Source of the DNA: Dyadobacter sp. 50-39
GTDB lineage: Bacteria; Bacteroidota; Bacteroidia; Cytophagales; Spirosomataceae
NCBI GenBank assembly: GCA_001898145.1
Contig: MKSR01000006.1
Span: 164,123-228,122, forward strand
Reading direction: 5' to 3'
Length of the DNA: 64,000 bases
In this document: positions 3,734 through 24,705 of the stretch, piece after piece
Layout: each line of letters starts with the position of its first letter
Position numbering within the stretch: the stretch's first letter is position 1
The notes under the pieces: model-generated
Seen by the model: only the letters and a program-made list of their open reading frames with translations
Databases searched by the model: none
Told to the model about the DNA's origin: nothing
Program-made: the position numbers and the translations under genes

Positions 3734-3735
3734 CG

Positions 3736-6823: not shown

Positions 6824-6844
6824 GTGTCTCTGGTTTGTTGTTGA

Positions 6845-6916: not shown

Positions 6917-7030
6917 TCACTCAGTGGTTGGATTTTCAGATTTATCAATAGAATTAGGTTGGGGCACCTTGACGAGTCACAGGTTGCCAGAAGATCACAG
7001 AGCCTAACCTCTCCCTTCGTTCTCAATAAA

Positions 7031-7078
7031 TCTATAAATTCGATAGACAAAGATTGATAAAAGATTTTAAGAATGCAA
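7031..7078 (-). promoter_or_regulatory. Promoter A with overlapping sulfur-type operator
   Basis: On the minus strand a TTG box (7076-7078) and TTTG box (7048-7051) are separated by exactly 24 bases, matching the Bacteroidota -33 / -7 arrangement (TTG, nnTTTG). Directly downstream lies the dyad TCTATCGAATTTATAGA (7031-7047), with TCTAT / ATAGA arms. The transcription start would fall inside the dyad, so a bound repressor would block initiation. The same geometry occurs at 21724-21771 and 24615-24662. The next gene downstream is the cysteine desulfurase, about 210 nt away. Confidence 0.65.
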
Positions 7079-7222
7079 GGGGTGATGTTGGGAAGGTGAA
7101 AAAAATTTTCGGACAAGGGTCGAAAACCGTTTGCCTATCCATCACGTGAGTTTGCACATTAAGTACACGGCGTGAGCAAATGCACTTCTATCTTGTGCGG
7201 GATCTTTCTCTATTTTAAAAAA

Positions 7223-7585
7223 ATGGCTACAACAGCATTGGTAGAAACACTTAAAACCGTGTTTCGGGAAGCAAAAAGTGAGGGCGTGATAATAGATGCC
7301 ATCGGATTGGCACCAGCGTATCACGGCATGGTGAAGGATAGATATACCCTGGGCGTGAGCATACCCATCGTTCCGGCCACAGAAACGAAGGATAAGATGG
7401 AGATTGTCTTCAATATCATCTGGCGACATCTGACAATGGATGAGCGTAGGTTTATCGACCGGGTACGTGTTTTCGATAGTATCGAGGAGCTCGACGACCA
7501 CAAATACAATGATTTTGAACAGTACCCTTACGAAGGCTATTTCGGAATTCAGCGAAAACTGCCTGAATTGTATCCTATTGACTAG
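7223..7585 (+). CDS. Hypothetical protein
   Basis: This encodes 120 residues from the ATG at 7223 (MATTALVETLKTVF); an in-frame GTG at 7172 would add 17 residues. There is no signal peptide or membrane segment, so it is probably cytoplasmic. The sequence is acidic towards the C-terminus (FDSIEELDDHKYNDFEQYPYEGYFGIQRKLPELYPID) with no motif I recognise. It lies alone on the plus strand and is closed by a strong bidirectional terminator shared with the sulfatase unit arriving from the other side. Confidence 0.6.
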   Translation: MATTALVETLKTVFREAKSEGVIIDAIGLAPAYHGMVKDRYTLGVSIPIVPATETKDKMEIVFNIIWRHLTMDERRFIDRVRVFDSIEELDDHKYNDFEQYPYEGYFGIQRKLPELYPID

Positions 7586-7591
7586 CAAAAA

Positions 7592-7633
7592 AACAAACGA
7601 GGGCGCTCTTCTCCTATTTCGCCCTCGTTTGTT
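7592..7633. terminator. Strong bidirectional terminator
   Basis: AACAAACGAGGGCG (7592-7605) and CGCCCTCGTTTGTT (7620-7633) are perfect 14-bp inverted arms around a 14-nt loop. The A-rich left end and T-rich right end allow termination in both directions. It sits between the hypothetical gene (stop 7585) and the last sulfatase of the minus-strand operon (stop 7656), so it marks the end of both transcripts. Confidence 0.85.
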
Positions 7634-7655
7634 GAACAGGTAATTCCTACACTGC

Positions 7656-9029
7656 TTACTTCACCTCCTTCTTCAACACCTCATACCGCTTTCTCATTTT
7701 TTCCAGTCTACCCTTTTCCGAGGATCGTTGGGCCAGGTTAGTCGTCTCATGCGGATCCTTTGTGGTATCATAAAGCTCCTCATACCCATGTTCCGTGTAA
7801 CGCATGTATTTCAAACCCGGACTCACCACCCCTTCGACTTTCGGCAAGCGTGGACTGCCGAGGTAGGTATGTTCGTAGAAAAAATCCTTCCGAGGGGTAG
7901 CCATCTTTTGCTCGACGGCCAGAAGATCGTAGCCCTGAATAGCCTTTGGCACGGCGATGCCGGCGAATGCGAGAATGGTAGGTGCAATATCGATATTTAG
8001 CGCAAGCTGCCCGGAGGTGCGCCCTCTCATGTTCGCGGGTAATGCGCCACCGGAGATGATGAGCGGGACACGGATGGATTCTTCGAAACCAAACCATTTA
8101 CCTTCCAGGCCGTGCTCGCCCAGCGAGAAGCCATTGTCGCCCATGAAAATAATGAGCGTATTGTCATCGATTTTCAGGTTTTCAAGCTGGGTGACCATGT
8201 TTCCTACCACCTCGTCGACGCCGGTAATGAGGCGGTAGTAGTCGCGGGTGGTTTGCCGGCGGAGTTCCGGTGTCGATAGCAGCGGTTTCCACCGGTCGCG
8301 GCCGATGTTCTGGTCGGTACGGAAGAATGCGGGCAGACTGTCCCAATACTGCGGTGCAGCCGTAAGCGGGTCAGGAATGTCGGCATTTTCATATAATCCT
8401 TTAAAACGCGCCTGAATGGGATACTTCGGCGGATTGCCATCGAGCTCGTGCGGGGCTTTGAAGCTTACCGAAAGACAAAACGGTGCATCCCGGCCTGCAA
8501 AACGGTCGAGAAATTGCGCGATGTCTTTGCCGACGCTGTCGGTATGGTGGATAGTATGACCGCTTTGGTTAACGAGCTCATATTGCGGCTGCCCCTCTTT
8601 TTTGGCAGCCCAATAATCAAACAGCGTGTCAGGCTGGTTCTTGACGCCGATGCCGAATTTTCCGATAAACCCGATATTATAACCTGCGTTTTTCAGCAAT
8701 GCCGGATAGGTCTCCGAGAGCGCTTCCGATTTGAAATCGGTATTGAAATCGTTAATCCCGTGTCGCGACATGTACTGCCCGCTCAGCAGGCTGGCTCGGC
8801 TCACCATGCAAATAGCGGTCGTCACATGCGCATTTGTATACAAAATGCCTCGTTTAGCCAGTGCGTCGAGATGCGGCGTCCGGATTATTTTGTTCCCCAT
8901 CGCACCCAGCGCGTCCCAACGGTGGTCGTCGGTGAGGAGAAAAATGATGTTCGGCCTCTTCACTGTTTGCGCGATGGCGGTAAAAGCGTGCGCAAACAAA
9001 AGCAGGACAAGTATGAATGTCTTTTGCAT
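7656..9029 (-). CDS. S1 family sulfatase (CMVSR active site), secreted
   Basis: This encodes 457 residues from ATG at 9029, with a signal peptide (MQKTFILVLLLFAHAFTAIAQ). Metal-ligand block NIIFLLTDDHRWDA and the formylglycine site AICMVSRASLLSG (Cys74) are present; the third motif position is Val where most S1 sulfatases have Pro or Ala. FIGKFGIG replaces the common GKWHLG, and IIFMGDNGFSLGEHG supplies the distal Asp/Asn metal ligands. The enzyme hydrolyses sulfate esters or sulfamates in the periplasm after maturation of Cys74. It is the last gene of the susCD-sulfatase unit. The substrate is unknown. Confidence 0.92.
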   Translation of the reverse strand: MQKTFILVLLLFAHAFTAIAQTVKRPNIIFLLTDDHRWDALGAMGNKIIRTPHLDALAKRGILYTNAHVTTAICMVSRASLLSGQYMSRHGINDFNTDFKSEALSETYPALLKNAGYNIGFIGKFGIGVKNQPDTLFDYWAAKKEGQPQYELVNQSGHTIHHTDSVGKDIAQFLDRFAGRDAPFCLSVSFKAPHELDGNPPKYPIQARFKGLYENADIPDPLTAAPQYWDSLPAFFRTDQNIGRDRWKPLLSTPELRRQTTRDYYRLITGVDEVVGNMVTQLENLKIDDNTLIIFMGDNGFSLGEHGLEGKWFGFEESIRVPLIISGGALPANMRGRTSGQLALNIDIAPTILAFAGIAVPKAIQGYDLLAVEQKMATPRKDFFYEHTYLGSPRLPKVEGVVSPGLKYMRYTEHGYEELYDTTKDPHETTNLAQRSSEKGRLEKMRKRYEVLKKEVK

Positions 9030-9094
9030 ATTACAAACCAATTACGCGAGGACTAAGCCCGCCGCCGACCGGACTACTTTCCGATACTCCGCCA

Positions 9095-10522
9095 TCATTT
9101 ACCTGTCTGCTGCTCGGCCTCGGGATAGCCCTTTTTCAACAAAACAGCCAGCTCGTTCACCGTAATAACAAAGTTATTGTCTTTGGCCAGGTTGGTAAAC
9201 TCCCCGGGGTCTTTCTGGTGGTCGTACAGCTCCACCCCTGCTTTCCCACCGTCCCATTCGGTATAGCGGAAGCGCTCCGTACGCACGCTGCGACCAAAAA
9301 TCTGGCCCCGGCGCACCTGGGTATAAGCGGGTTTATTCCAAGGGGCAGATGGGTTTTTCAGCAACGGCAGAAGGCTTTTACCTTGCAGATTCTGTTTCGG
9401 ATCAAGGCCGCAAAGCTCAGCCAGCGTAGGGTAAATGTCCACCAGTTCCACCGTGCGGGCGGATGCTTTTCCTTTGGTACCACCCGGAACGGAAATGATG
9501 AGCGGCACGCGCGCGGAGTTTTCAAACAAACTTTGCTTCATCCATTGTCCGTGCTGGCCTACATTGTAGCCATGGTCGCTCCAAAGCACGATGATCGTCT
9601 TTTCGGCCAGTTTCAATTTGTCAACGGCATCGATAAGCCTACCTACCTGCGCGTCCATGAAAGTGATGGTCGCATAGTAGGCACGCAAGGCTTCGCGGCG
9701 TTTCGCCTCGTCGAGGCCCCAATGCGGCGGTTTAGTGAATAATGCCGCTTCCGGTACGTCGTCTAGGTCATTCGGGATCTCTTTGGGGAGAGGTACCTTA
9801 TCCACGTCGTACATATCGAAGTATTTCTGAGGCGCCACATAGGGCGTATGCGGCCTGAAAAAGCCAACAGCAAGGAAAAACGGCTCGTTCTTTTTCTCGG
9901 TCATGAGCTTGATTGCCTCCGTTGCGATCATCCCGTCGGTTTGCTCCTCGTCGGTACCTTCCGTGGCGCGCCATGCCAATGCACTCCCGAGCGCGCGGTC
10001 GGGCGTGAGATTTTTGATCAGCGGCTCCTCGGTTTTATCGCGGCCTTTCGGGTTCACACGGTGGTTCCACGAATCGGGATCGTCCAAGCCGTCGGTACCG
10101 ATCTGGCCCGGCACGCCGTAATGGAAGATCTTCCCTACCCTCGCACTGTAATAGTCATTGTTTTTAAAAAGCTGGGGTAATGTGACGATATCCGGCAGGT
10201 TTTTACGAAAATGCGTCTGGAGTTCATAAATCTTAGTCACATCCGGCCGCTGGCCGGTAAGCAGCGACGAGCGGCTCGGGCTGCAAAGCGGAAACTGGGT
10301 ATAAGCCTTATCGAAACGGACGCCGCGTTTGGCCAGGCGGTCGATGTTCGGGGATTTCACGAAGGTATTACCGTACGTACCAAGGTCGTTGTTCAGGTCG
10401 TCGACCGCGATGAACAGGACATTATACTTCGGCTTGGCCCTCCCGTCGCCATCGGCGGACGTCGTAAAAGAAGTGAGTGATAGCGCTGCCAGCGCCAGCC
10501 ATGCATATTTTTTCATCATCAT
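9095..10522 (-). CDS. Iduronate-2-sulfatase-like S1 sulfatase, secreted
   Basis: This is a 475-residue protein with a signal peptide (MMMKKYAWLALAALSLTSFTTSA). It has the NVLFIAVDDLNNDLGTYG metal-ligand start, VKSPNIDRLAKRGVRFDKAYTQ, and the maturation site LCSPSRSSLLTG with Cys80. HTPYVAPQKYFDMYD and WSDHGYNVGQHGQWMK are typical of the iduronate-2-sulfatase-like branch. It probably removes sulfate from a secreted or plant/animal-type sulfated saccharide, which is family inference only. The neighbouring upstream gene is a close relative that has lost its active site. All key residues are intact here. Confidence 0.92.
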   Translation of the reverse strand: MMMKKYAWLALAALSLTSFTTSADGDGRAKPKYNVLFIAVDDLNNDLGTYGNTFVKSPNIDRLAKRGVRFDKAYTQFPLCSPSRSSLLTGQRPDVTKIYELQTHFRKNLPDIVTLPQLFKNNDYYSARVGKIFHYGVPGQIGTDGLDDPDSWNHRVNPKGRDKTEEPLIKNLTPDRALGSALAWRATEGTDEEQTDGMIATEAIKLMTEKKNEPFFLAVGFFRPHTPYVAPQKYFDMYDVDKVPLPKEIPNDLDDVPEAALFTKPPHWGLDEAKRREALRAYYATITFMDAQVGRLIDAVDKLKLAEKTIIVLWSDHGYNVGQHGQWMKQSLFENSARVPLIISVPGGTKGKASARTVELVDIYPTLAELCGLDPKQNLQGKSLLPLLKNPSAPWNKPAYTQVRRGQIFGRSVRTERFRYTEWDGGKAGVELYDHQKDPGEFTNLAKDNNFVITVNELAVLLKKGYPEAEQQTGK

Positions 10523-10535
10523 AATGGTTTTTGAT

Positions 10536-11667
10536 TTACTCCTTATCCTCTTTCACAGTAGGCGCATCTTTCGCATTGACCGCCGGCAACGACTTCGCCA
10601 GCTCCGCTTTCACAGATGCATATTTTACATCCTTAGCCAGGTTTTTGAATTCCTGCGGATCGGTATCATGGTCATAGAGTTCTTCCGAACCGTCGTTGTA
10701 GCGGATGTACCGGTATTTTTCGGACCGCACCGCGTGGTTGCCGAACCCGTGCGTCGTAATGGAAGGATGGTGCCAGGCCGCGGCCGGATTTTTAAGCAGC
10801 GGTACGATGCTGTTGCCTTCCACACCCTTTTTCGCAGGTAATTTACACAGTTCGGTCAGCGTGGGATAAATGTCCATCAAATTCACCGTACGTTCAGAAA
10901 CGCCGCTGGTTTTCGACAAACCCGGCGCGTACACGATAAACGGCACGCGCGAAGCCTCCTCCCACAATGCAAACTTCCGCCAATGCTCCTTCTCGCCCAG
11001 GTGCCAGCCGTGGTCGCCGAAGAAGACGATCACCGTATTTTGGGCATACTCGCTGTTTTCCAATGCATTCAGCAAACGGCCGATCTGACCGTCGGCAAAC
11101 GTAATGCTCGCCAGATACCCCTGCACCGCTTTTTCCCATTGCTTATTTTCCACAATGAATTTGTGATCCCCCTTCGGTTTGGCGATTTTCACCCCTGCAC
11201 CCGGCACATCGTCCAGGTCGTTGGCCATGGTTTTGGGCAGCTTGATGGAAGACAACGGATACTGGTCGAAGTACTTTTGCGGCACATACCAGGGCAAATG
11301 CGGCCTCGTAAAACCAACCGCCAGGAAGAACGGCTTCGCATGTTTCTCATTCAGGAAGCCAATACCTGCATTCACAACCTTAAAATCACCCATATCCTCG
11401 TCCTGCACATCCACCGGGCTCCAGTCGAAATGCGCGAAACCATTCACCGGCGCTTTGGGCGGCTCGGGCGATTTCGGAATATCGAAGTAGGAAGGCCAGG
11501 AAGCATCGTCATTGAATGCCGGGATACCCGCCAAACGGCCCGATCCAATCGTTCATATCGTCGACCGCAATGAAGAGCACGTTGTATTTCGTGTTTTGGG
11601 CAAATACATTCAGGCCGGGCAAAAGTGCCATCAGTATGAATGCAATGCGTCGGAATCTGGTAACCAT
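10536..11667 (-). pseudogene. Iduronate-2-sulfatase-like sulfatase with active-site deletion
   Basis: A frame from ATG at 11667 encodes a signal peptide and the metal-ligand block (NVLFIAVDDMNDWIGPFGGYPGIQ), then hits TGA at 11509-11511. A second frame, ending at 10536, continues with PAFNDDASWPSYFDIPKSPE and the whole C-terminal half (FFLAVGFTRPHLPWYVPQ, VFFGDHGWHLGEKEHWRK, SEELYDHDTDPQEFKNLAKD). Against the adjacent sulfatase about 90 residues are missing at the join, including the C-x-P-S-R formylglycine site, and the frame is shifted. The two halves meet at GGCATTCAA, which is read in both frames. The product cannot be a sulfatase. The damage is recent-looking because the rest is well preserved. 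Confidence 0.85.
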
Positions 11668-11687
11668 ATCGTTGATTTTTAAATACA

Positions 11688-13052
11688 TTAATCCCCTTTT
11701 TCTGCAAATGCCGGATCAGGCTCCAGTCCTGGCAAAATCACTTTGGCCACACCCGGATCGCCATATTTCCACGCCGGCAACTTGTCCATTTCAGCCTGAA
11801 ATACTTTTCTGATTTTTTCCCCCTCCGGCCCCGCTTTACCCACTGCAATCCGGCTCGTTTCTTCAATATCCTTTTGCAAATCATAAAAACGACCGTCGGA
11901 ATACAGCTTGTAGCGGCGGTCGCGGAAGAAACGCGCCGAATGCTTGTTGATCGCCTCGACGTGGATTGGCTGGTAATGCGAGAAAATCCATTTGCGCGGC
12001 GTGCCTTTTTCGCCTTTGATCTGCGGGAGAATGCTGGTACCGTCTGTATTCCAGCCAGCGGGCACTTTTACATTCACCGCCTGCGCAATCGTCGGAAGCA
12101 TATCCGTAAAATCGACGAGGTCGTCTGTCACGTGTGTTTTGTAACGTCCTGTTCCCCAGTTCACGATCAGCGGCACGTGGTGGCCGCGGTCGATGGTGAG
12201 CCCCTTACCGCCTTGCAGTTTAGTGCCGTCTTTCAGTTGCGTCACAATCGGCCGACCGGTACCATTGTCGCCGGTGAAAATGATGATGGTATTCTCATAC
12301 AACCCGAGGTCTTTCAGCTTCTGCACGATTTTGCCCACATTTTTATCCAGATACGAAACCATATCCCTAAAATTGGCCGTATCCTTTTTAAAACGCCCTT
12401 CCACATCGGATTTCCAGCTTTTGCTGTCGGGCGTCGGCAGGAACGGGTCGTGTACAAGCGCCATCGGGAAATAGGCCAGGAACTTGCGGTCCTTGTTCTT
12501 TTCAATGAAATCGAGCATGTAGTCGGTAAAAATATCCGGACCGTAATCGTCGGCATCGGTTTTCAGGATTTCACCGTCGCGGTCGATGAGCGGCTTCGCG
12601 TAACGCTCGCCCTCGCGGCGCGGCCTGCTGAGCTGCCAGAGGCAATACTGGTCGAAACCGAAATGCTTCGGCAGTTTCTGGTTCGCGCCGAGCTGCCATT
12701 TGCCGGCAATGGCGGTGGTATAGCCCGCTTCCTTCGCCAAATGCGCAAAGGTCTTTTGGTCCTGGTTCAGAAAACCGAACTCGGAGTAATTCTTGTAATT
12801 GTATTTCCCGGTCATGATCTGCACGCGGGAAGGCGTGCAAAGCGGCTGGGAAAAGCCGTAGTTGAACTTCAACCCCTCCTTCGCGAGCTGGTCGATATTC
12901 GGGGTTTGGTAAGTGCTTCCGTAGGTACCGATGCATTGCTTGCCCATGTCGTCGGCGAGTATAAGGACGATATTAGGCGATTGCTTCTGCGCCATCGCAG
13001 GCGTGAGCGCGAGGAATGCCAGGAGGAGCGTGAGGTATTTTGGAAAATGCAT
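11688..13052 (-). CDS. S1 family sulfatase, secreted
   Basis: This encodes 454 residues with a signal peptide ending PAMAQ. Metal-ligand block NIVLILADDMGKQCIGTYG, formylglycine site LCTPSRVQIMTG (Cys72), AIAGKWQLGANQK and IIFTGDNGTGRP are all in the expected order. The region after the active site (YNYKNYSEFGFLNQDQKTFAHL) and the C-terminal FYDLQKDIEETSRIA fit arylsulfatase A-like S1 enzymes of Bacteroidota. It acts on a sulfate ester in the periplasm, with the substrate unassigned. The start lies 18 bp behind the stop of the large sulfatase upstream, so co-transcription is clear. Confidence 0.92.
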   Translation of the reverse strand: MHFPKYLTLLLAFLALTPAMAQKQSPNIVLILADDMGKQCIGTYGSTYQTPNIDQLAKEGLKFNYGFSQPLCTPSRVQIMTGKYNYKNYSEFGFLNQDQKTFAHLAKEAGYTTAIAGKWQLGANQKLPKHFGFDQYCLWQLSRPRREGERYAKPLIDRDGEILKTDADDYGPDIFTDYMLDFIEKNKDRKFLAYFPMALVHDPFLPTPDSKSWKSDVEGRFKKDTANFRDMVSYLDKNVGKIVQKLKDLGLYENTIIIFTGDNGTGRPIVTQLKDGTKLQGGKGLTIDRGHHVPLIVNWGTGRYKTHVTDDLVDFTDMLPTIAQAVNVKVPAGWNTDGTSILPQIKGEKGTPRKWIFSHYQPIHVEAINKHSARFFRDRRYKLYSDGRFYDLQKDIEETSRIAVGKAGPEGEKIRKVFQAEMDKLPAWKYGDPGVAKVILPGLEPDPAFAEKGD

Positions 13053-13070
13053 AATGAATAAAATTAAACC

Positions 13071-15410
13071 TTACTGATATTTGATCGTCACTTTCTTCAA
13101 CTTGCCTGTAAATGCAAATGGCGCCTGGTACAGGTCCGAAACGGCGAATTTCTGGTCGCGCCCCACGTCGGTACCGTCGATCTGGCGCGGGCCCTGGACC
13201 TGCGCCTGCGTGGCCGCGAAACTGCGTTCGCCTACCTTTTCATCATTGATGTATACGGTCTCCTTCCCTACCGACTTGCTTCCTTCCGAGGGTCCGTTGA
13301 ATTCGTAAACCAGCCTGAAATGCACGCGTCCCGTTGGAACAGCACCGGTAGAAGCGAGATGATAAGCATCCCGCGCCGTTTTGTGGGCGTAATGCAGTTT
13401 CCCATCTTTTAAAAACAAGCTGATCCCGCTTTTCTCCCCTCCTACCGCAAAAAGCACACCCTCTTCCTTGCCGGTAACCATGTCGGCCTCGGCATCCACG
13501 GTGAACGACCGCCCGTCGTACAGCGGACTGCTTACGCCTACGAGGTTGTCAATACCCGGAAAAAGGATAATCTCGGGCATTTTACCGTATACTGTCCGAC
13601 CCGCAGGCATGTCATGCGCGGTGAAATCTTTGAGCGGGTACACATTGTATTTTTTCGCTTCCTGGTCGAACACGGCCTGTAACTCTTTCAGCTTTTCGGG
13701 ATTTTTAGCGGCCAGGTTTGTGCGCTCATTAAAATCCTCATTCAAATTATACAACTCCCACACATCTTTGCTGAAATCCACCGACTTGCCCGACAGATCG
13801 GCCTTGCTGCCCGCATCGAAACCTTCCCACACCGAATGCCCCTTAGATGCCTTCCAGCCATCCTTGTAAATCGATAATGCCCCTGCGATTTCGTAATACT
13901 GCACCGTGTGCCGGGACGACGCTTTGGGCTGGTCAATTGCATAGGCAAGGCTGGTACCTTCAAACGGCTCCTGCTTATAACCGTTGATCACCTTCGGCGC
14001 CTCGGCTCGGGCCAATTCGAGGGTAGTCGGCAAAATATCGTTCACATGTCCGTACTGGTTGCGGATGCCGCCTTTCTCCCGGATGCCTTTGGGATAATGC
14101 AAAATCATCGGGTTGCGTGTACCACCTTCGGTGTTGGCGTCGCCCTTCCAGTAGCGGAACGGCGTATTTGCTGCGGCAGCCCAGCCTATCGGGTAGTCGG
14201 TGCTCGACTCGTCGGTACCGATCAGGTCGCGGGCATTCAGGATGGCGTCGATGCGCGCTTCGCCCTGCAACCGGTTGATTTGCGGATTGATGGTACCATG
14301 CTGGGTACCGCCCTTGCTGGCGCCATTATCGCCCAAAATCACAGCGATGACCGTATTATCCAACTGGTCGATCTGTTCGAGGTAATTCACAATGCGGCCG
14401 ATTTCGTAGTCGGTGTAGGTGTAAAATGCCGCATATACCTCCATGAAATGCGCGTACGCCTTCTTCTCTTTGTCGGAAAGGGCGTCCCACTCCTTCACCC
14501 CGGGATTACGCTCGGGCAATACGGCATTCTGCGGAATGATGCCCAGTTTCTTCTGCTTTTCGATCACGATCTCCCGGTATTTGTCCCAGCCCATGTCGAA
14601 CTTGCCCTTGTATTGGTCAATCCACTCTTTCGCAACCTGGTGCGGCGAATGCGTGGCGCCGGTGGCGAGGTAGAGAAAGAATGGCTTCTCCGCATCCACC
14701 GATTTCTGGTTGGCAATGTATTTGATCGCCTTGTCGGCCAGGAGTTCGTTCAAATGCCTGGAATTGGGTTCGATGTCGAGCTTCGTCACGTCCTCCCAAA
14801 GCTCGGGGTGCCACTGATCGGTAGCGCCGGGCAGGAAGCCATAGTAATGGTCGAACCCGCGTCCGGTCGGCCAGCGATTGAACGGTCCGGCCTGCGAGTT
14901 TTCCGTAACCGGCGTCAGGTGCCATTTGCCCAATGCAAAAGTGGCGTAACCATTCTCGCGCAGCACCTCGGCGGCGGTAGCTTTCTCAAATGGAATGTAG
15001 GTGTCATATCCCGGAAAATCAACGGCAGCGGGCGTGAGCAAACCCACGTGCGCCGAATGATGGTTCCTGCCCGTGAGCAGGGCCGCGCGGGTGGGCGAGC
15101 AAATGGCCGTCGTGTGGAAATTGGTAAACCGCAGGCCATTGTTGGCAAGCTTCTCAATATTCGGGGTTTCTACAAGTCCTCCGAATGCCGTGGTCGCACC
15201 AAAGCCGGCGTCGTCGATCAGTATCCAAACCACATTCGGTGCGCCTTTCGCGGCTTTTTTATTGTATTCGATATGGAACGGGGTCGATTCCTGCAATGTC
15301 TTCCCGGCCTTTCCGTTCCAGGGCTGCTGCGGACTATGCTGCGCCATGAGCGACTGAACGGCCAGACTGCCAGCCAGCACAATCGCGCTGATTTTGAACA
15401 AGTTTTTCAT
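13071..15410 (-). CDS. Large arylsulfatase (AtsA-like S1 sulfatase), secreted
   Basis: This encodes 779 residues from ATG at 15410; an in-frame upstream ATG/alternate start to 15464 would overlap the preceding stop region and put a non-signal extension first. The signal peptide ends SLMAQ. NVVWILIDDAGFGATTAFGG, the maturation site TAICSPTRAALLTGRNHHSAHVG (Cys104), FALGKWHLTPVTE and VILGDNGASKGG are full-length AtsA-type features. About 180 C-terminal residues form an added beta domain (FSKDVWELYNLNEDFNERTNLA onward, then VGVSSPLYDGRSFTVDAE) as in long arylsulfatases. The position in the susCD unit points to sulfate release from small aryl or alkyl sulfate esters, which is inference. Confidence 0.92.
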   Translation of the reverse strand: MKNLFKISAIVLAGSLAVQSLMAQHSPQQPWNGKAGKTLQESTPFHIEYNKKAAKGAPNVVWILIDDAGFGATTAFGGLVETPNIEKLANNGLRFTNFHTTAICSPTRAALLTGRNHHSAHVGLLTPAAVDFPGYDTYIPFEKATAAEVLRENGYATFALGKWHLTPVTENSQAGPFNRWPTGRGFDHYYGFLPGATDQWHPELWEDVTKLDIEPNSRHLNELLADKAIKYIANQKSVDAEKPFFLYLATGATHSPHQVAKEWIDQYKGKFDMGWDKYREIVIEKQKKLGIIPQNAVLPERNPGVKEWDALSDKEKKAYAHFMEVYAAFYTYTDYEIGRIVNYLEQIDQLDNTVIAVILGDNGASKGGTQHGTINPQINRLQGEARIDAILNARDLIGTDESSTDYPIGWAAAANTPFRYWKGDANTEGGTRNPMILHYPKGIREKGGIRNQYGHVNDILPTTLELARAEAPKVINGYKQEPFEGTSLAYAIDQPKASSRHTVQYYEIAGALSIYKDGWKASKGHSVWEGFDAGSKADLSGKSVDFSKDVWELYNLNEDFNERTNLAAKNPEKLKELQAVFDQEAKKYNVYPLKDFTAHDMPAGRTVYGKMPEIILFPGIDNLVGVSSPLYDGRSFTVDAEADMVTGKEEGVLFAVGGEKSGISLFLKDGKLHYAHKTARDAYHLASTGAVPTGRVHFRLVYEFNGPSEGSKSVGKETVYINDEKVGERSFAATQAQVQGPRQIDGTDVGRDQKFAVSDLYQAPFAFTGKLKKVTIKYQ

Positions 15411-15435
15411 TTCAGTTTGGGTGTTAAAAAAATGA

Positions 15436-16896: not shown

Positions 16897-16918
16897 TGTT
16901 TCAGATCATTTAAAAACC

Positions 16919-18346
16919 TCACTCCCAGCCCGGATTCTGCACCAATTTGGGGTTCAAATCCATTTCCCGCTGCGGGATCGGGTGCAGGTAGTGCTTCTCG
17001 GCGGCGTTGGTTTTGCCGGCAGCGTGCAATGCAGTGACCATCCTTTTGGTACGCACCAGGTCGAACCAGCGCTGGAATTCGAACATCAGTTCCAGACGGC
17101 GTTCCAGGTAAATAGCCTCTCGGAACTGGTCCTTGGTCAAACCGGCCAACGCATCCAGCCCGGCACGTTTGCGGACGCGGTTGACAGCGGCGAGCGCATC
17201 GGCCGTCGGGCCGCTGGCTTCGTTCACGGCCTCGGCATAAATCAGCAGGATTTCCGCAAAACGGATCACTGGAATATTCTTCGCCGATTCGGTAGGATTC
17301 ACGATCTGCGCCGGGTCGAAATATTTAAAAAAACGGGGCGGAAAGGTGATTTCCTTACCAGTAGTAGGGCTCACGAGCGAGGTAAAAAAGGTAACCTCCC
17401 GGCGCTTGTCCTTCTCGCTGAACAACTTGTACACATCGGCCTGGGGCTCATCCGTACCCGCAGAAGCCACACCCGGAATTCCTACCGGCGTCGCCGACGA
17501 GGCGAGACGGTTCCCCTGCCCGTTCACATTGGATTTACACTGCGCCGAGAAAATGTGCTCTTTACCGTTCTTGGTAGCAACATTGAACACATCTGCGAAA
17601 TTCTCGAACAAATCGTAACCATACGGCCCATTGATCACTTCGAGGCTCTTGGAAGCGGCCTTGTCCCACTCCTGGCGTGTGAGGTACACCTTCGCTAGGA
17701 TGGATTTGGCGGCACCTCCCGTCGCCCGACCCGCATTCGCGCCCGTGAAGGAATTAGGCAGTGCTTCTGCGTCGGTCAGGTCCCGGATAATCTGCTTGTA
17801 CACCTCTTCCTTCGGCGCACGCGCCACCTGGATGGCCTCATTGTTCAGCGACCCGTTTTCTTCCAGGATCAGCGGCACGTCTCCCCAGAGCCGCACCATG
17901 TTGAAGTACGTCAGCGCACGCAGGAACTTTGCTTCATTCACGAGCCGGGTACGCAGGGCAGCGTCCATTTCAATGCCTGGAATACGCGCAATGGCGATAT
18001 TGGCGCGGTTAATGGCCACATAGCTCTCGCGCCACAACTCGTCCACACGGTCGTTGGTAGTCGAATGCGCCAGTACGGAAATCGTGCGCACATCGGCATT
18101 CGTCACCCGCAGGCCCGCAATCGCATCGTCGGACATGATTTCGAATGCGAGGTGGAAAAGCCGGTTGTACATTGTGAGCCCGCCGTTGTTCAATGCGGCA
18201 TTGTATACGGCCGTAACGGCTGCCAGCGCATCGCTTTCGGTTTTGTAAAACTGTTCGGTGGTAATGAGGGAGGCGGGATCTTCATTCAGGTCCGTGCAGG
18301 CCGTGAAGCTGAAAATGCCCAGGATCAAGAAAAATAGCTTTTTCAT
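16919..18346 (-). CDS. SusD/RagB family outer-membrane lipoprotein
   Basis: This is a 475-residue protein with lipoprotein signal MKKLFFLILGIFSFTAC (Cys17) followed by TDLNEDPASLITTEQFYKTES, the standard SusD opening. TPR-like helices (NEAKFLRALTYFNMVRLWGDVPLI; RATGGAAKSILAKVYLTRQEWDKAA) and the C-terminal block IRFAEILLIYAEAVNEASG ... AVNRVRKRAGL ... FREAIYLERRLELMFEFQRWFDLVRT are textbook. It acts as the surface lid of the SusC channel, capturing ligand at the outer face. It pairs with the susC gene 80 bp upstream and precedes five intact sulfatases. Confidence 0.95.
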   Translation of the reverse strand: MKKLFFLILGIFSFTACTDLNEDPASLITTEQFYKTESDALAAVTAVYNAALNNGGLTMYNRLFHLAFEIMSDDAIAGLRVTNADVRTISVLAHSTTNDRVDELWRESYVAINRANIAIARIPGIEMDAALRTRLVNEAKFLRALTYFNMVRLWGDVPLILEENGSLNNEAIQVARAPKEEVYKQIIRDLTDAEALPNSFTGANAGRATGGAAKSILAKVYLTRQEWDKAASKSLEVINGPYGYDLFENFADVFNVATKNGKEHIFSAQCKSNVNGQGNRLASSATPVGIPGVASAGTDEPQADVYKLFSEKDKRREVTFFTSLVSPTTGKEITFPPRFFKYFDPAQIVNPTESAKNIPVIRFAEILLIYAEAVNEASGPTADALAAVNRVRKRAGLDALAGLTKDQFREAIYLERRLELMFEFQRWFDLVRTKRMVTALHAAGKTNAAEKHYLHPIPQREMDLNPKLVQNPGWE

Positions 18347-18426
18347 ATGTTGTCAATTGTGGTCATGAATTGCCATGTGTTCGTCAGCCCGACTACCCAC
18401 AGCAAAGCCTGACTTTTCGAATTTGC

Positions 18427-21400
18427 TTAAAATGAGATACTTAAACCACCCAGAAACGACTTACTGCCGGGGTACACGCTGTAATCGATCCCCTGGGCGA
18501 GCGTGCTCTGTTCATTGCGGCTTACCTCGGGATCAAAGCCGGTGTACCTGGTGAAAGTGAGCAGGTTGGCGGCGGACACATATACTTTGATCTGGCTGGC
18601 GCGGATTTTCGAAGCCAGCGCTTTCGGCAGGTTGTAACCCAGCGTCACGTTTTTCAGGCGTAGGAACGACGCATCTTCTACATACCGGCTCGTGTTCACC
18701 GGCGCCGGATCTTCAAATGCCCGTTGGATGACGTTAGTCGGGTTGGACGGCGTCCAGCGTTCCAACGCGGTTACCGATGCATTCTGCTGGCCGGTGAGGA
18801 GTTCGAGCTGCTGTTTGTTCTGGTTGAAGAGCTTGTTTCCGTAGGTGCCCTGGAAGAAAAAGCTCAGGTCGAAATTGAGATAGGACAAGGTGTTGGTAAT
18901 GCCTCCCTGAAATTTCGGCTGGGCATTTCCGATAATCATGCGGTCGTCTGCCTGGGTGATTTTACCATCTCCGTTGATATCCACATAGCGGCGGTCGCCG
19001 GGCTTGGTGGTAGCAGGGTTAATGGTCGGCAGGTTCGCAATGTCGTCGCCGGTCTGGAAAAGGCCATTGGTTTTATACCCATAAAATGATCCCAATGGCT
19101 GCCCTACCTGCGCAATGTTGGCCCCTGAAATGATGTAGTTGGCACCGTCACCGAGTGTCAGCACTTTATTGCGGTTTATGGAAAACACAAAATTGGTATT
19201 CCAGGTAAATGCGCCGGTGAAATTTTCTGTATTAATGCCGAGTTCAATGCCTTTGTTCTCAACCGAGCCATAGTTCTGCAACGCGGTCGACTGCCCGGTG
19301 GTGTAAGGGATCGGCACGTTCAGCAACAGGTTCGTCGTCTTTTTGTAGTACGCATCGAACACCAGGTTAATGCGGTTTTTGTAAAGCGAAAGGTCGATAC
19401 CGGCATCATATTGGGCAGTGGTTTCCCAGCCGAGTTCGGGGTTAGCAATGCGGTTGGGCGCAAAACCTATGTAGGTTTGGCCACCGAAGAAATAAGTATT
19501 GGAATTCAAAGTCGCCAGCGAAAGGTACTGCCCGATTTCCTGGTTGCCCGTCACACCTGCGCTCAGGCGCAGTTTGAGGTTACTGATATGCTTGTAGTTA
19601 GCCAAAAAATCCTCCCTCGAAATATTCCAAGCAAATGCGGCGGAGGGGAAATATCCCCATTTCTTGTCTTCGCCAAACCGGGAGGAACCGTCGGCGCGGC
19701 CGCTCACAGTAAAAATGTACTTCTGGTCGATGGAGTAGTTGATCCGCCCCAGCCAGGAGTTCAGTGCCCAGGCCGACGAACCCGACGAAGGCTGGCTGTA
19801 TACCGACCCGCTGCCCAGATCATTGTATTCCAACTGATCGGTCACAAACGCTTCGGACGCAGCAATGGCACTCTCCGTTTCGAATGCCTGCTGCGTGTAC
19901 CCGACGACAACGTTGAGCGAATGCGTTTGGTTAAATGTTTTGGAATAGCTTAATGTATTTTCATTCAGCCAGGTAGACGAAAACTTGCTACCTACCGACG
20001 CTTTGCCGGTGGGATTGGAGTTCGCACCCTGGTATAGGTCCGACGGCACATAGCGGTTCTGCTTGTTGTTGATCACATCCGTGCCGAACGACACTTTTCC
20101 CACCAGTCCGTCCAGAAAAGTATATTCACCAAACACATTACCCAGCACGCGGTAAGTCTTGGTTTGGTTTACTTCTTTTTCCAACGTGGCGATGGGATTA
20201 CCGAGCGGCGTTTCGAACTCGCTCTGGTAGGTATATTTTCCGGTAGCGTCGTACACATTAACGGCCGGAGGCATGGCGAGCAATGCGTTCACAACGCCGT
20301 TGTTGGCCACCTGTGCCGTGATTTTACTGGCCGTCAGGTTCACACCAACCTTGAATTTGGCAGAAAAATCACGGTCGAGGTTGATACGGCCGGAGTAGCG
20401 CTCGAAGTCGGTGTTGCGCAGTACGCCGTTCTGTTTGAAATAGTTACCCGAAATCGAGTAACGCGTGCGATCGTCACCGCCGGTGAGCGACAGCTGATGG
20501 TTCTGGATGGGTGCCGAGCGGAAAGCTTCGCCCTGCCAGTCGGTACCGTCGCCCAATGCGTCGATCTGTGCCTGGGTGTAGTAAGGTGCTTTTCCGGAAT
20601 TCACGCGGGCGTCGTTTTTCAGCAATGCCCAATCGCGTGCGCTGGTAAGAACATCCACTTTTTTCAATACCTTCTGGGTACCGTAGTAAGCGTCGTAGGT
20701 CAGTGTATTCTGCCCGGCCTTCCCTTTTTTGGTCGTAATAATCACTACCCCATTGGCACCGCGAGAGCCGTAAATGGCTGTGGCAGAAGCATCTTTCAAC
20801 ACTTCTATGGATTCGATATCGCTCGGGTTGAGGCTGGACAATGCATTGATGCTCGGCCCGGCGGTCACACCGGCGCTGGCGTCGGCATTGCTGTTGTACA
20901 CCGGAAAGCCATCGATCACATACAGCGGCTCGTTACCGCCCGTGATGGAATTGCCCCCGCGTATGCGTATGCTCACGGCCGCACCCGGCTGCCCCGATGT
21001 TTGCGTCACCTGCACGCCCGCGGCGGCTCCCTGCAAGGCGCGATCGAACGAGCTGATGGGCTGTTTCAGAGCCAGTTGCGGCACCGATGACACCGACCCG
21101 GTAATGTCGCCTTTTTTCTGGGTACCATAGCCGATCACCACCACCTCGTCGAGCACGTTGGCGGTTTTCAGCACTATTTCCGCGGCTTCGCCGGTCAGTT
21201 CGTAAATATCGATTTCCTGCTGCTGGTAGCCGGTCAGGTTCACTTGCAATGTGAATGGGAAGTCGTCGGGTGCAGGGATGGAAAATTTGCCGTCGAGGTC
21301 AGTGGCGGCATAGCGCGAAGTGCCCTTCAACACCACGGTCGCACCGGGTATCGTTTGCCCGGAAGCGTCTTTCACGACCCCGGAGACGGTTTCCTGGGCA

Positions 21401-21456
21401 TAGGAATGACTTAAAAAGCCTGTCAGGAACAGGACCACGTAAAGGTACCTTCTCAT
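18427..21456 (-). CDS. SusC/RagA family TonB-dependent outer-membrane transporter
   Basis: This is a 1009-residue receptor with signal peptide ending SHSYAQ, a carboxypeptidase-regulatory-like beta-sandwich (residues about 23-103), and the TonB box/plug start DEVVVIGYGTQKKGDITGSVSSV. The plug contains the PLYVIDGFPV and EVLKDASATAIYGSRGANGVVIITTKKG hallmarks, and a C-terminal 22-strand barrel ends in F. No STN domain, so it is not tied to FecI/FecR signalling. It probably imports a sulfated oligomer or ester for the sulfatases behind it. Promoter/operator C lies about 270 nt upstream, leaving a long untranslated leader. Confidence 0.95.
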   Translation of the reverse strand: MRRYLYVVLFLTGFLSHSYAQETVSGVVKDASGQTIPGATVVLKGTSRYAATDLDGKFSIPAPDDFPFTLQVNLTGYQQQEIDIYELTGEAAEIVLKTANVLDEVVVIGYGTQKKGDITGSVSSVPQLALKQPISSFDRALQGAAAGVQVTQTSGQPGAAVSIRIRGGNSITGGNEPLYVIDGFPVYNSNADASAGVTAGPSINALSSLNPSDIESIEVLKDASATAIYGSRGANGVVIITTKKGKAGQNTLTYDAYYGTQKVLKKVDVLTSARDWALLKNDARVNSGKAPYYTQAQIDALGDGTDWQGEAFRSAPIQNHQLSLTGGDDRTRYSISGNYFKQNGVLRNTDFERYSGRINLDRDFSAKFKVGVNLTASKITAQVANNGVVNALLAMPPAVNVYDATGKYTYQSEFETPLGNPIATLEKEVNQTKTYRVLGNVFGEYTFLDGLVGKVSFGTDVINNKQNRYVPSDLYQGANSNPTGKASVGSKFSSTWLNENTLSYSKTFNQTHSLNVVVGYTQQAFETESAIAASEAFVTDQLEYNDLGSGSVYSQPSSGSSAWALNSWLGRINYSIDQKYIFTVSGRADGSSRFGEDKKWGYFPSAAFAWNISREDFLANYKHISNLKLRLSAGVTGNQEIGQYLSLATLNSNTYFFGGQTYIGFAPNRIANPELGWETTAQYDAGIDLSLYKNRINLVFDAYYKKTTNLLLNVPIPYTTGQSTALQNYGSVENKGIELGINTENFTGAFTWNTNFVFSINRNKVLTLGDGANYIISGANIAQVGQPLGSFYGYKTNGLFQTGDDIANLPTINPATTKPGDRRYVDINGDGKITQADDRMIIGNAQPKFQGGITNTLSYLNFDLSFFFQGTYGNKLFNQNKQQLELLTGQQNASVTALERWTPSNPTNVIQRAFEDPAPVNTSRYVEDASFLRLKNVTLGYNLPKALASKIRASQIKVYVSAANLLTFTRYTGFDPEVSRNEQSTLAQGIDYSVYPGSKSFLGGLSISF

Positions 21457-21723
21457 TAGTTAGTAGTAAGCGGGTTTGGTAAATGTTAAGTAAAACGGGT
21501 TTAACTGAACTTTGGAAAAATGATTATGATATGGATACGTCCTTAGCCAACGACTACCGGAATGGCAGCACGCAGCAAGTGAGCGTTAACGTTAATTCAT
21601 ATACGCAATGCAGCGCATACGCGAAACCCGCCCCTGTGTTTAAAGCAATACAGGCATTTGCAGATGTACCGTCTTGGAAATGGTGGTTATTTCCGGTCGA
21701 CAGGGTTTCAATAAAATAGTTAC
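21457..21723 (-). promoter_or_regulatory. Long 5' leader of the susCD-sulfatase unit
   Basis: This 267-nt stretch separates promoter C from the susC start codon and has no convincing gene. One minus-strand mini-frame (MRCIAYMN) carries a Cys codon, and a run reading TGCTGCGTGCTGCC resembles the Cys-codon end of the leader peptide ahead of the binding-protein gene, but no start codon leads into it. I see no known riboswitch. Its length, shared with the other two members of the regulon, suggests post-transcriptional control. Confidence 0.35.
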
Positions 21724-21771
21724 TCTATAAATTCGGTAGGCAAAGTAAATTTATCAATCCCAATAATCCAA
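21724..21771 (-). promoter_or_regulatory. Promoter C with overlapping sulfur-type operator
   Basis: On the minus strand TTG (21769-21771) and TTTG (21741-21744) are 24 bases apart, identical to promoters A and B. The adjoining dyad (21724-21740, CCTACCGAATTTATAGA in RNA sense) keeps the TAGr / CTA arms. The sequence TAAATTTACTTTG around the -7 box is shared base for base with promoter B. It drives susC, susD and the sulfatase genes. Confidence 0.65.
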
Positions 21772-21827
21772 GGATCTTCCTCGATTATTGGGATATTTTA
21801 AGCGTGAAATGCTGTCAGGAAATTGGG

Positions 21828-22508: not shown

Positions 22509-22568
22509 GGCTTGTTTTAAGGTAAAAAGGTAATGGTTAGCAAAATACGAAACCATTCCACAAACTAC

Positions 22569-23360
22569 CTATTTTCCGGCATTTTTCCCGGCTGCCCGCT
22601 CGGCCCTTTTCCGGATATGGCTATCGTCGGAAGGCATCCGCTGAACGAGCGGCGGCGGGGTATTGCCTATTTGCCTTTTATAAACTTCCAGCGAGGCCAA
22701 CAGCTCCCTGGCTTTCGCGGGGTTCGATTTCAGTAAATTATTCTGCTCGCCCAGGTCGGTTTTAAGGTTAAAAAGCAAGGTATCCTCCGCAGCGACGATT
22801 ACCGCATTGCCCTGTTTCACCTCTTTTTGCGGCAGCCTGATCTTCCAGTCGCCCTTGCGATATGCTTCGATAATGCCATTTGAATAATAGGCAAACTCAT
22901 TGCCCTTCCGCTTGCCGGTACCGAACAGCACCGGACTGATATCTTCTCCGTCGAGCGGCTTTTTGGTTTGCGATTTCTGGCTGCCTGTGAGACCGATAAT
23001 CGTTGGATAGAGGTCCAGGTGCGACGCCAGGTCGTCGTACACCGTACCGGGTTTGATTTTGCCTGGCCAGCAGGCTACGGTCGGCACGCGTTGCCCCCTT
23101 CGAACGTAGTGCCTTTCCCTGCCGCAGCGACGCTGCCGAGCCACCCTCCACGTCGAAAATCGGGTAATGTACAGAAAGAACGGCTTGTCCCTGTTCTGAT
23201 CGATGAAACGCACGGCTTCCCTCGTATAAGTCTGCGTGATATACTTCTGATTCACCTTAATGCTATCGACGTCATTACCCCGCAGGTACGCCACGCCCAT
23301 CATATCATTGCTGTACGGAATGCCGTAGTATTTTTCCAATAAACCTACTTTTTTCCGGGA
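22569..23360 (-). pseudogene. Sulfatase remnant, N-terminus lost and frameshifted
   Basis: The frame from about 23360 reads GLLEKYYGIPYSNDMMGVAYLRG, which is the middle of an S1 sulfatase, then FFLYIT. Here it derails into ARQRRCGRERHYVRRG while another frame carries GGWLGSVAAAGKGTTFEGG, the normal late block; the frames rejoin at a run of five C near 23093-23098 as QRVPTVACWPGKIKPGTVYDD. The C-terminal portion (LFNLKTDLGEQNNLLKSNPAKARELL) is intact. The first ~130 residues with the formylglycine site and some 60 mid-domain residues are gone. It cannot be active. A terminator lies just upstream. Confidence 0.8.
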
Positions 23361-23376
23361 TAATGAATGGGGGGTA

Positions 23377-23413
23377 AAGAAAAAGCGGGCACTACATGAA
23401 GTCGTACCCGCTT
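23377..23413 (-). terminator. Rho-independent terminator after binding-protein gene
   Basis: On the minus strand AAGCGGG ... CCCGCTT forms a 7-bp stem (arms 23407-23413 and 23383-23389) followed by TTTTTCTTT. It begins 13 nt after the stop of the periplasmic binding protein gene and separates it from the sulfatase remnant. Confidence 0.75.
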
Positions 23414-23425
23414 GGCATGCAAACC

Positions 23426-24358
23426 TTACTTTACAGCCTGAAATCGTTCCAGTTTCTCTTTTTCGTCGGCCAGGCGCTTGGCGTCGGCTTTCAGGTAACC
23501 AAACTGGTGAAGGTCTTTATCAGCATTCGCCGCCACCCAAAGCAGGAATTTCTTGGCTTCGGGGTTCGAATTGTTTTTAGCAATGGAAAAATGGATGTTT
23601 TCAACCGGCACGTTTTTCACTTTTCCAGCTTCCAGAGTTGCAATCACCTGGTCCAGGTTTTCCAATGCCTTTTCTTCTTTCGAAACCCGGCCATTGCCAT
23701 CCAGGTCTACGGGGATGATCGTTAACCCGTCCAGCGGTTTCCGGCTTTGCAGGTCGTAAGCGAGGCCAGGCGTCGTATAAGTAATTCCCGTCTCATCTTT
23801 CAGCAGTGCTTTGATCAAATGCTCGTCGGCACCCGCGATCGCCTTTCCTTTGATATTCTGCTGCTCGTAACCAAAATAGCGGGCAAAAGTGAGCGGCGCG
23901 CCGGCCTTTTGCAGGCGGGTATAAACGGTATATGGTGTGTTAAGCGATTTGTCTTTTTCAGCGTAAATATCGTGGAAGAAAATCTGCTTGTACGTTTTTT
24001 CATTCAGCCCTTTATCAGCATACTCCTTTGCAAACGCCGACTTTGCATTTGCCACCGGCAGCAATGCATACCGGCCGATCGAAATATACTCGCGGGTTTC
24101 TTTCACTTCCTTTTCCTGGTCGTACGCCTCTATCAGCAGATCATATTTAGCGGGATCGGTGATAGTACGGGTTTCGATAGCAATCTGCGCCTTGGGATTG
24201 GCGGCAGTGTACTCCCTGATCCACTTATCGACCAGCGGGTAAGCAAATCGTACGCCCGTAATGATCACTTTGTTTTCGTTGGATTCCTGCGCAAATGCGT
24301 GGGAAAAAGCAGCCAGCGCAAGACCTGCTGCCAAAAAAATAGTCTTCAAGTTTCTCAT
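23426..24358 (-). CDS. Periplasmic binding protein, PstS/sulfate-type fold
   Basis: This is a 310-residue secreted protein with signal peptide ending SHAFAQ. The type II periplasmic-binding fold is suggested by KVIITGVRFAYPLVDKWIREYTAANPKAQIAIET and YDLLIEAYDQEKEVKETREYISIGRYALLPVANAKS, with YKQIFFHDIYAEKD and ITYTTPGLAYDLQSRKPLDG later, as in phosphate/sulfate ABC binding proteins. An EF-hand-like loop, DLDGNGRVSKEE (about residues 222-233), is inserted. No ABC permease or ATPase lies nearby, so it may instead hand ligand to, or sense for, an outer-membrane system. Promoter B, a Cys-ending leader peptide and the sulfatase context suggest an oxyanion or organosulfur ligand, which is inference. 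Confidence 0.7.
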   Translation of the reverse strand: MRNLKTIFLAAGLALAAFSHAFAQESNENKVIITGVRFAYPLVDKWIREYTAANPKAQIAIETRTITDPAKYDLLIEAYDQEKEVKETREYISIGRYALLPVANAKSAFAKEYADKGLNEKTYKQIFFHDIYAEKDKSLNTPYTVYTRLQKAGAPLTFARYFGYEQQNIKGKAIAGADEHLIKALLKDETGITYTTPGLAYDLQSRKPLDGLTIIPVDLDGNGRVSKEEKALENLDQVIATLEAGKVKNVPVENIHFSIAKNNSNPEAKKFLLWVAANADKDLHQFGYLKADAKRLADEKEKLERFQAVK

Positions 24359-24437
24359 GATGTTAAAATGGTTGGAGCCGCGGACTGATCGGCCAGCATG
24401 TAAGATGATATGTAACAGGGTGAAAATCGGATAGCGG

Positions 24438-24451
24438 CGACGTGGTCGTCG
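24438..24451 (-). promoter_or_regulatory. Hairpin just after the Cys leader peptide
   Basis: In RNA sense CGACG-ACCA-CGTCG is a compact 5-bp stem with a 4-nt loop, starting 10 nt after the stop codon of the leader peptide and about 80 nt before the binding-protein ATG. A ribosome paused on the terminal Cys codons would lie over or next to it. Its role in attenuation is inferred. Confidence 0.4.
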
Positions 24452-24461
24452 TCAAAACTAA

Positions 24462-24560
24462 TCAGCAACAGCAACGGTATGCTTGCCTGGAAGAATGCAG
24501 AAAGTGGCCCACCATAGGCACAATGGTCATGCGCGAAGAATAACGATCCATCGATTTCAT
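24462..24560 (-). CDS. Cysteine-ending leader peptide (32 residues)
   Basis: An uninterrupted frame from ATG at 24560 to TGA at 24462-24464 encodes MKSMDRYSSRMTIVPMVGHF followed by LHSSRQAYRCCC. Three consecutive Cys codons (TGC TGT TGC) sit immediately before the stop. The frame lies wholly inside the leader between promoter B and the binding-protein gene, about 65 nt after the predicted transcription start. Runs of a regulatory amino acid at the end of a leader peptide are the hallmark of ribosome-mediated attenuation, and poly-Cys leaders control sulfur genes in mycobacteria. A short hairpin follows the stop. No ribosome binding site is obvious, which is normal in this phylum. Confidence 0.55.
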   Translation of the reverse strand: MKSMDRYSSRMTIVPMVGHFLHSSRQAYRCCC

Positions 24561-24614
24561 GTTTTGAAAAAGATTGTTGTACCGATCTCGTCTGCTGGTG
24601 GTTAACAGATAAAA

Positions 24615-24662
24615 TCTACTAATTTGATAGACAAAGTAAATTTAAAGAAATTGAAAACGCAA
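24615..24662 (-). promoter_or_regulatory. Promoter B with overlapping sulfur-type operator
   Basis: On the minus strand TTG (24660-24662) and TTTG (24632-24635) are 24 bases apart. The dyad TCTATCAAATTAGTAGA (24615-24631) abuts the -7 box, with TCTA / TAGA outer arms and pairing AA/TT inside. The CCCCTTGC context around the -33 box is shared with promoter A, and AAATTTACTTTG with promoter C. It drives the Cys leader peptide and the binding-protein gene. Confidence 0.65.
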
Positions 24663-24705
24663 GGGGTTGGCTTGAAATTCATTGAAAATTGAGGAATTGA
24701 AGCAT

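Follow-up and report, generated by a model that had tools for sequence, protein, structure and literature searches.

A shared promoter-operator module with differing messenger leaders marks a sulfur regulon in Dyadobacter

Does one repressor suffice to coordinate a set of sulfur-scavenging genes, or do their messages carry further controls of their own? The question is raised by a stretch of 64,000 nucleotides from Dyadobacter sp. 50-39 (contig MKSR01000006.1, here G000:C6:164123-228122, in a genome of 7.72 Mb and 48 contigs), which we refer to as the window and in which the initial annotation had recognized three identical promoter-operator modules and assigned them all to a single sulfur-sensing repressor. 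Our analysis confirms the three modules and finds them to be the mark of a sulfur regulon that is conserved within the genus Dyadobacter. Control by one repressor alone is not supported, since the leaders downstream of the modules carry further and different likely sensors. As an explanation of the whole, we consider it probable that a shared repressor operator is followed by cysteine or S-adenosylmethionine (SAM) control within the leaders.

On re-reading, all three blocks were recovered on the minus strand, each consisting of TTG, 24 bases, TTTG and a 17-bp dyad: module 1 at 7031-7078 with the dyad TCTATCGAATTTATAGA, module 2 at 21724-21771 with CCTACCGAATTTATAGA and module 3 at 24615-24662 with TCTATCAAATTAGTAGA. 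The consensus of the 21-mer that spans TTTG and dyad returns only these three sites in the window at up to two mismatches, with 0.07 expected from shuffled sequence, and the distances from the end of the dyad to the next ATG (207, 267 and 256 nucleotides at sites 1-3) agree with the annotated leader lengths of 200-270 nucleotides. The modules are not identical, as site 2 reads CCTACC... and the leaders of the three sites also differ. In relatives, the left arm of site 2 is broken and reads CCCAC, with loss of the palindrome at all five readable orthologous sites (a sixth, L162, was unread), and site 2 is the weakest of the three modules.

The predicted bias towards sulfur genes, whose absence the annotation had named as grounds for refutation, was recovered genome-wide. 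At up to three mismatches the 21-mer has 16 matches, among which the three window sites, C8:21222 and C12:185925 show no more than one mismatch, and C8:14646 (two mismatches) and C23:42990 (three mismatches) also carry the promoter. Together, the four sites outside the window lie in front of a sulfatase gene, an operon for SusC, SusD, sulfatase and a rhodanese-thioredoxin protein, a gene of the fatty-acid-hydroxylase family that comes after an open reading frame (ORF) of 40 amino acids, and a sulfatase-clustering gene. The other nine matches were left out as members, the promoter-dyad pattern being absent from all except L008, which has ATTA in place of TTTG. The looser pattern TTTGTCTAY-N7-RTAGA gives 13 genome-wide matches at up to one mismatch against 11 in a reversed control, and this tier alone is therefore mostly noise; the exact matches precede sulfur-type genes in five of five cases. 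Among six extra matches of the loose pattern, five have no TTG 23-25 bases upstream, and the last (L013), with TTG-N23-TTAG and perfect arms, lies inside an ORF of the opposite strand with no ORF of 120 amino acids within 600 nucleotides. The hydroxylase-family gene at C8:14646 (L006) weakly matches a model for ornithine-lipid hydroxylases, and its place in the regulon possibly reflects a lipid change under sulfur limitation.

Within the genus, the strict motif (up to one mismatch) occurs in 45 of 48 genomes, with no matches of the reversed control, and one of the three genomes without it (G040) has a perfect-arm dyad before a sulfatase; across the family, exact matches are found in 39 of 222 genomes and two of 36 genera. 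A set of 78 distinct sites, composed of 60 stretches fetched among the matches listed, the loci L030-L058 and the seven sites of this genome, precedes genes for cysteine desulfurases (16), sulfatases (15), binding proteins (14), SusC (14, ten by clustering and four recognized singly), AhpC/TSA proteins (seven), the fatty-acid-hydroxylase family (four) and rhodanese-type proteins (two, assigned by resemblance to a domain-scanned protein), besides six singletons. The gene sets of genome and genus thus bear out one shared promoter-operator with a strong sulfur bias. No dyad with TTTG or perfect arms was found at the sulfate-assimilation operon (cysH, cysD, cysN and cysI-like genes), either in short loci or in the longer stretches L026-L029, which defines a scavenging set rather than the whole of sulfur assimilation. 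The spacing of 24 bases between TTG and TTTG is kept at 119 of 145 distinct sites. The -7 box TAnnTTTG, which the annotation had adopted from the Bacteroidota-type promoter consensus (given in passages of PMC7366714), fits only in part, the A being found in 31 of these 145 sites and replaced by T in the other 114.

The leaders that follow this common module are of different types. In leader 1, a SAM-I riboswitch aptamer (RF00162; 6939-7032, minus strand) scores 47.3 bits against a gathering score of 44.4 and overlaps the last two bases of dyad 1. The same aptamer is found in 19 of the 20 desulfurase and AhpC/TSA loci (the exception being L054) and in L106, L109, L111 and L117, and it is absent from all 14 sites that belong to other classes of leader. 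It always begins at nucleotide 20 of the 21-nucleotide block of TTTG and dyad, both in the window and in 23 relatives, all of them over the gathering score. This fixed position lends indirect support to a transcription start in or just before the dyad, as had been annotated. Leader 1 resembles the SAM-I family in passing its gathering score, and it is distinguished by an aptamer that begins at an operator which leaders without riboswitch also use.

A different arrangement is found in the leader of module 3, which on the minus strand contains the ORF MKSMDRYSSRMTIVPMVGHFLHSSRQAYRCCC-stop (24462-24560) of 32 codons, ending in Cys-Cys-Cys-stop with the Cys codons at 24465-24473. Its other features are a 5' hairpin with the loop AACCACC (element A, 24586-24614) and the motif GGTGG within the ORF (element B, 24509-24513). 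Neither this ORF nor the riboswitch of leader 1 had been recognized in the initial annotation. The trait of an attenuator, a short leader ORF with a run of cognate codons, is present at site 3 and, as a poly-Cys ORF, at 57 of the 146 distinct sites for which sufficient sequence was at hand, a count that retains the 15-codon ORF of L183, which looks like chance. In these 57 ORFs, themselves selected for CC at that place, the final seven codons are 46% Cys, compared to 2.3% in the preceding part, and the two Cys codons are mixed (132 TGT, 53 TGC). CCACC is found within the first 75 nucleotides of 56 of the 57 leaders. Of 45 leaders examined that have this motif, 43 present it in the loop of a hairpin, with 11.5 expected for shuffled flanks. 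GGTGG is contained in 49 of the 57 ORFs, in the same frame at all 51 occurrences, and lies 31-40 nucleotides ahead of the Cys run in 43 of the 49. Poly-Cys ORFs occur in 26 of 28 leaders of the binding-protein group (0.24 expected from dinucleotide shuffles), in ten of ten susC leaders (0.07 expected), three of four hydroxylase leaders (0.03) and two of seven sulfatase leaders (0.01), the last five of which were included in the knowledge that the ORF was absent. In these counts L132 and L136 are scored as misses because another dyad in the stretch was picked; the dyads that belong to the two leaders are followed by Cys ORFs. Some sulfatase genes have nearly no leader. An NCBIfam scan of four leader peptides gave no match.

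A contig scan, which may leave out records near the window's own genome, provided 26 related binding-protein loci, 23 from Dyadobacter and the others from Ohtaekwangia, Chryseosolibacter, where the dyad is weak and TTTG not intact, and a metagenome-assembled genome termed 'uncultured Bacteroides'. Including the window, 26 of 27 loci have a leader ORF that ends in a Cys run. The exception is found in D. luticola (L131/L105, genome G021), where the leader start MKSMDVYSS... is fused in frame with the binding-protein gene and the Cys run is lost, hence a hint that the leader start codon is used. In the Ohtaekwangia-type loci L142 and L143, a dyad, CCACC, a SAM riboswitch and then a Cys leader follow each other in a single 5' region. 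Leader 2 of the window contains the hairpin GGAAAT-AACCACC-ATTTCC (21676-21694, minus strand), which represents element A; it was considered as a Cys attenuator and ruled out, as it has neither a Cys ORF nor GGTGG.

The third type was recognized in two leaders of this genome outside the window, which share a hairpin of about 100 nucleotides with the loop motif TTTTCGGTGGTTG. This motif occurs only twice in 7.7 Mb, each time after a dyad, and the reading of the hairpin as a mobile repeat was rejected for this reason. The loop contains an invariant GGUGGUU (element C) that is complementary to element A. Fold z-scores of five examples range from -5.1 to -7.9. A first model built from seven sequences, with two-sided changes at 14 of 33 pairs, matched 51 of 222 family genomes, 44 of them among the 48 of the genus and seven in four other genera. 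In an alignment of 35 sequences (32 distinct), which was fitted to the model and so favours pairing figures, 94.6% of cells pair compared to 28-44% in slid controls, and two-sided changes are seen at 25 of 33 pairs compared to 14.2 in shuffles. Within the genus, a dyad lies 101-260 nucleotides upstream of the hairpin at each of the 30 loci returned (a second row for L172 reflects an internal look-alike in that locus); 29 precede sulfatases, and the last, L198, is a leader of the hydroxylase group that contains a Cys ORF. From other genera, we have read eight loci with ten hairpin elements. In six of them (L200, L202-L206), a dyad-like block, the CCACC hairpin, the Cys leader ORF, the long hairpin and the gene follow in that order, and L199 and L201 contain dyad and long hairpin only. 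A tandem pair of long hairpins occupies one leader of an out-of-genus relative (L206:11667-11941). A scan of 13 loci found element A complementary to a GGTGGTT stretch over 7-9 nucleotides in 12 of them (13 rows), with B matched instead of C in L205; L198, which has no row, reads AACCGCC in the loop and still pairs with one G-U. The ninth pair between A and C is U-A in L203, L204 and L206 and C-G in L200. A refined model applied under stricter filters to a sample of 390 genomes of the order gave 23 matches, all in the family of the host. Searched against Rfam 15, the long hairpin returned no family to an E-value of 5 (L004) and none at the gathering score (L017).

In the scheme that we favour, the 48-bp module would act as a Bacteroidota-type promoter with a 17-bp operator across the transcription start, where a CymR-like Rrf2 repressor bound to the dyad would shut off sulfur-scavenging genes in times of sulfur plenty; we infer both the identity of this repressor and its signal. 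The repressed set would comprise the cysteine desulfurase, SusCD-sulfatase loci, lone sulfatases, the oxyanion-type binding protein and thiol and rhodanese proteins. After the operator, many messages would face a second check that is specific to the message. In the first leader type, this check would be conferred by the SAM-I riboswitch beginning at the operator. In the second, stalling of a ribosome on the Cys codons at low levels of Cys-tRNA may lift a block on the main gene, both the stalling and the direction of control being presumed, in an RNA whose hairpin-exposed CCACC would be able to pair with GGTGG in the ORF. In the third, it would be exerted by the long hairpin, whose GGUGGUU loop is likewise complementary to element A. 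Since the fullest leaders hold A, B and C, element A could change partners. Given the spacing of ribosomes on a message, a second ribosome queued behind the stalled one would cover a GGTGG located 31-40 nucleotides from the Cys run and in this way free CCACC for the long hairpin. Since no terminator was found, control may be exerted through Rho or at the level of translation; in sulfatase leaders, the long hairpin would also have to act without CCACC. We put forward tentatively, as an idea that may well not hold, that these elements form a new RNA switch, in which the ACCACC loop would pick either GGTGG in the poly-Cys ORF or the GGUGGUU loop as dictated by Cys-tRNA supply via stalled and queued ribosomes that would hide the GGTGG, and where the lone long hairpin would be a new sulfur-metabolite riboswitch or be met in trans by the CCACC loops of other leaders.

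The sulfur-responsive repressor over the start site is probably a CymR-like Rrf2 protein, and the evidence for this part of the annotation, which had named an Rrf2 or similar type, is circumstantial. Three Rrf2 proteins of this genome score over cut-off. The CymR-like gene is located at G000:C19:231797 (L027:3795-4238); its Rrf2 domain (PF02082) scores 117.4 bits against a cut-off of 30, CymR is the closest among the named equivalogs and the nearest solved relatives include CymR. The presence or absence of this main copy is uninformative as a link to the dyad. The main copy is not located near dyads, and in 30 loci of other genera its neighbours are not consistently sulfur genes. Eight genomes of the genus contain a second, closer CymR-like copy (broken by stops in G018 and 50% identical in G008), and six of these eight lie within 15 kb of a dyad, a limit chosen after the data were seen, compared to 0.12 expected by random placement and to none of 35 other Rrf2 paralogues. 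ORFs beside the second copies resemble, by sequence, sulfatases, rhodanese and methionine-type ABC transporters. In two genomes of another genus (G101, G108), extra Rrf2 copies are found 5-9 kb from the long hairpin. The candidate is thus akin to the CymR-type Rrf2 regulators of cysteine metabolism in its family and nearest named equivalog, and differs in a score far under the CymR cut-off and in operator binding that is here only predicted.

A number of observations weigh against the proposed scheme. The candidate regulator reaches 81.3 bits in the CymR model NF047409, short of the equivalog cut-off of 195, and CymR-like Rrf2 proteins are found in all 48 genomes of the genus, including those free of the strict dyad, and likewise in all 36 genomes examined from the rest of the family. 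None of the three Rrf2 genes of this genome has a dyad with TTTG or perfect arms, the stretches L026-L029 included. Many of the compared sites come from close relatives and are hence not independent. No intrinsic terminator was found around leader 1 (6800-7100) or near leader 3 (24300-24700), and a crude terminator test was passed by only four of the 57 Cys leaders. Leader 2 has element A but no B, C or Cys codons, L058 and L093, two rhodanese leaders, combine the CCACC hairpin with GGTGG and lack a Cys run, the Cys ORF is absent in five of seven sulfatase leaders, and GGTGG is missing from eight of the 57 Cys ORFs and from the scanned span of three of the four hydroxylase leaders. The 29 genus hairpin loci that precede sulfatases are without element A, and the left arm of the dyad is degenerate in three of the six out-of-genus Cys-leader loci (L203-L205).

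Alternative explanations concern the identity of the regulator, the nature of the dyad and the role of the leader peptides. There is a realistic chance, though below even, that the dyad serves as operator of a sulfur-responsive regulator other than a CymR-like Rrf2 protein, which would leave the remaining picture unchanged. It would account for an Rrf2 gene without dyad whose main copy lies away from dyads and is present in genomes free of the strict dyad, whereas the proximity of the second copies to dyads, not shared by the other paralogues, and the solved relatives that include CymR speak for the Rrf2 protein. We regard it as unlikely that the dyad, instead of being a protein operator, belongs to the promoter or to the initially transcribed sequence, where it might for instance form a protective stem at the 5' end of the RNA. 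Its rigid connection to TTTG, its location at the expected start and a conservation that extends past the arms, with T at position 22 in 143 of 145 distinct sites, would all fit such a role; yet a start inside the dyad would presumably leave only one arm transcribed, and the description of other -7/-33 promoters in Bacteroides includes no such dyad in the passages concerned (PMC7366714).

Still less probable, in our estimation, is that the Cys-rich peptides of the leaders serve as metal sensors or as products in their own right instead of reporting on Cys-tRNA. Copper-sensing Cys-rich upstream ORFs do exist in Proteobacteria, but the set controlled here consists of sulfur genes, promoters of this type have a SAM riboswitch as their alternative leader, and the peptides vary except at their ends, with the Cys run located at the stop codon. 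That the three modules are chance look-alikes is scarcely credible: the near-equality of the one-mismatch tier of the loose pattern and its control is what such a reading would predict, and it is countered by the strict motif, which recurs across the genus before the same downstream genes with no control matches. At sites 1 and 3 the chance reading is as good as refuted; site 2, taken by itself, could represent a copy that has decayed.

Sulfatase-SusCD loci are usually regarded as genes for glycan use. If the explanation offered here is true, they would be tied to sulfur status via one operator and interchangeable RNA sensors, and the leaders together with the long hairpin could provide a new mechanism of attenuation and perhaps also a new class of riboswitch; the genus is culturable, which makes direct testing of sulfur control feasible. 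A literature search, with most subscription journals outside its scope, found no cysteine leader in Bacteroidota and no such regulon, and the leader architecture and the covarying hairpin are without earlier description in the literature searched, the latter also without Rfam match. The nearest parallel is found in mycobacteria, where short upstream ORFs with Cys runs at cysteine-responsive genes were proposed to mediate the cysteine response (Canestrari et al. 2020, as cited in PMC13236596). By the title of that work the mycobacterial ORFs are leaderless, whereas leader ORF 3 starts 75 nucleotides past the TTTG box, and the leaders described here are further distinguished by the preceding 5' hairpin, the CCACC and GGTGG elements, the shared operator, in some cases the long hairpin, and by a different phylum and different genes. 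Within the same phylum, leader-peptide attenuation was proposed for flavobacterial amino-acid operons (PMC9723704); these are biosynthesis operons, and the passage in question does not mention cysteine, sulfatases or a shared operator. In 2010, leader peptides had, to the knowledge of the authors of PMC2965389 as worded in the relevant passage, been shown only in Proteobacteria and Actinobacteria, to which Firmicutes were added.

The genes downstream of the modules are all encoded on the minus strand. Module 1 is followed by a cysteine desulfurase-type class-V aminotransferase (NifS/IscS-like, 5645-6823), which scores below the equivalog cut-offs. Downstream of module 2 are a SusC/RagA outer-membrane protein (18427-21456), a SusD-like protein (16919-18346) and, 3' of susCD, a run of six sulfatase-family ORFs (7656-16896), located at 15436-16896, 13071-15464, 11688-13052, 10536-11534, 9095-10522 and 7656-9041. 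Module 3 precedes a predicted periplasmic oxyanion-type binding protein (23426-24358), with 25.8 bits in PF12849, under the cut-off of 27. In a fold search with a medium-confidence model, its best matches were phosphate-binding proteins, and a sequence search against solved structures gave no useful match. For the sulfatase-family ORFs at 22569-23339 and 10536-11534, the match to the sulfatase profile is confined to its C-terminal part, and the two may be fragments, frame changes or wrong start calls. On the plus strand of the window, an ORF at 3730-4599 combines a ChrB C-terminal domain with a subsequent AraC-type helix-turn-helix domain and adjoins a gene for an EamA-type transporter.

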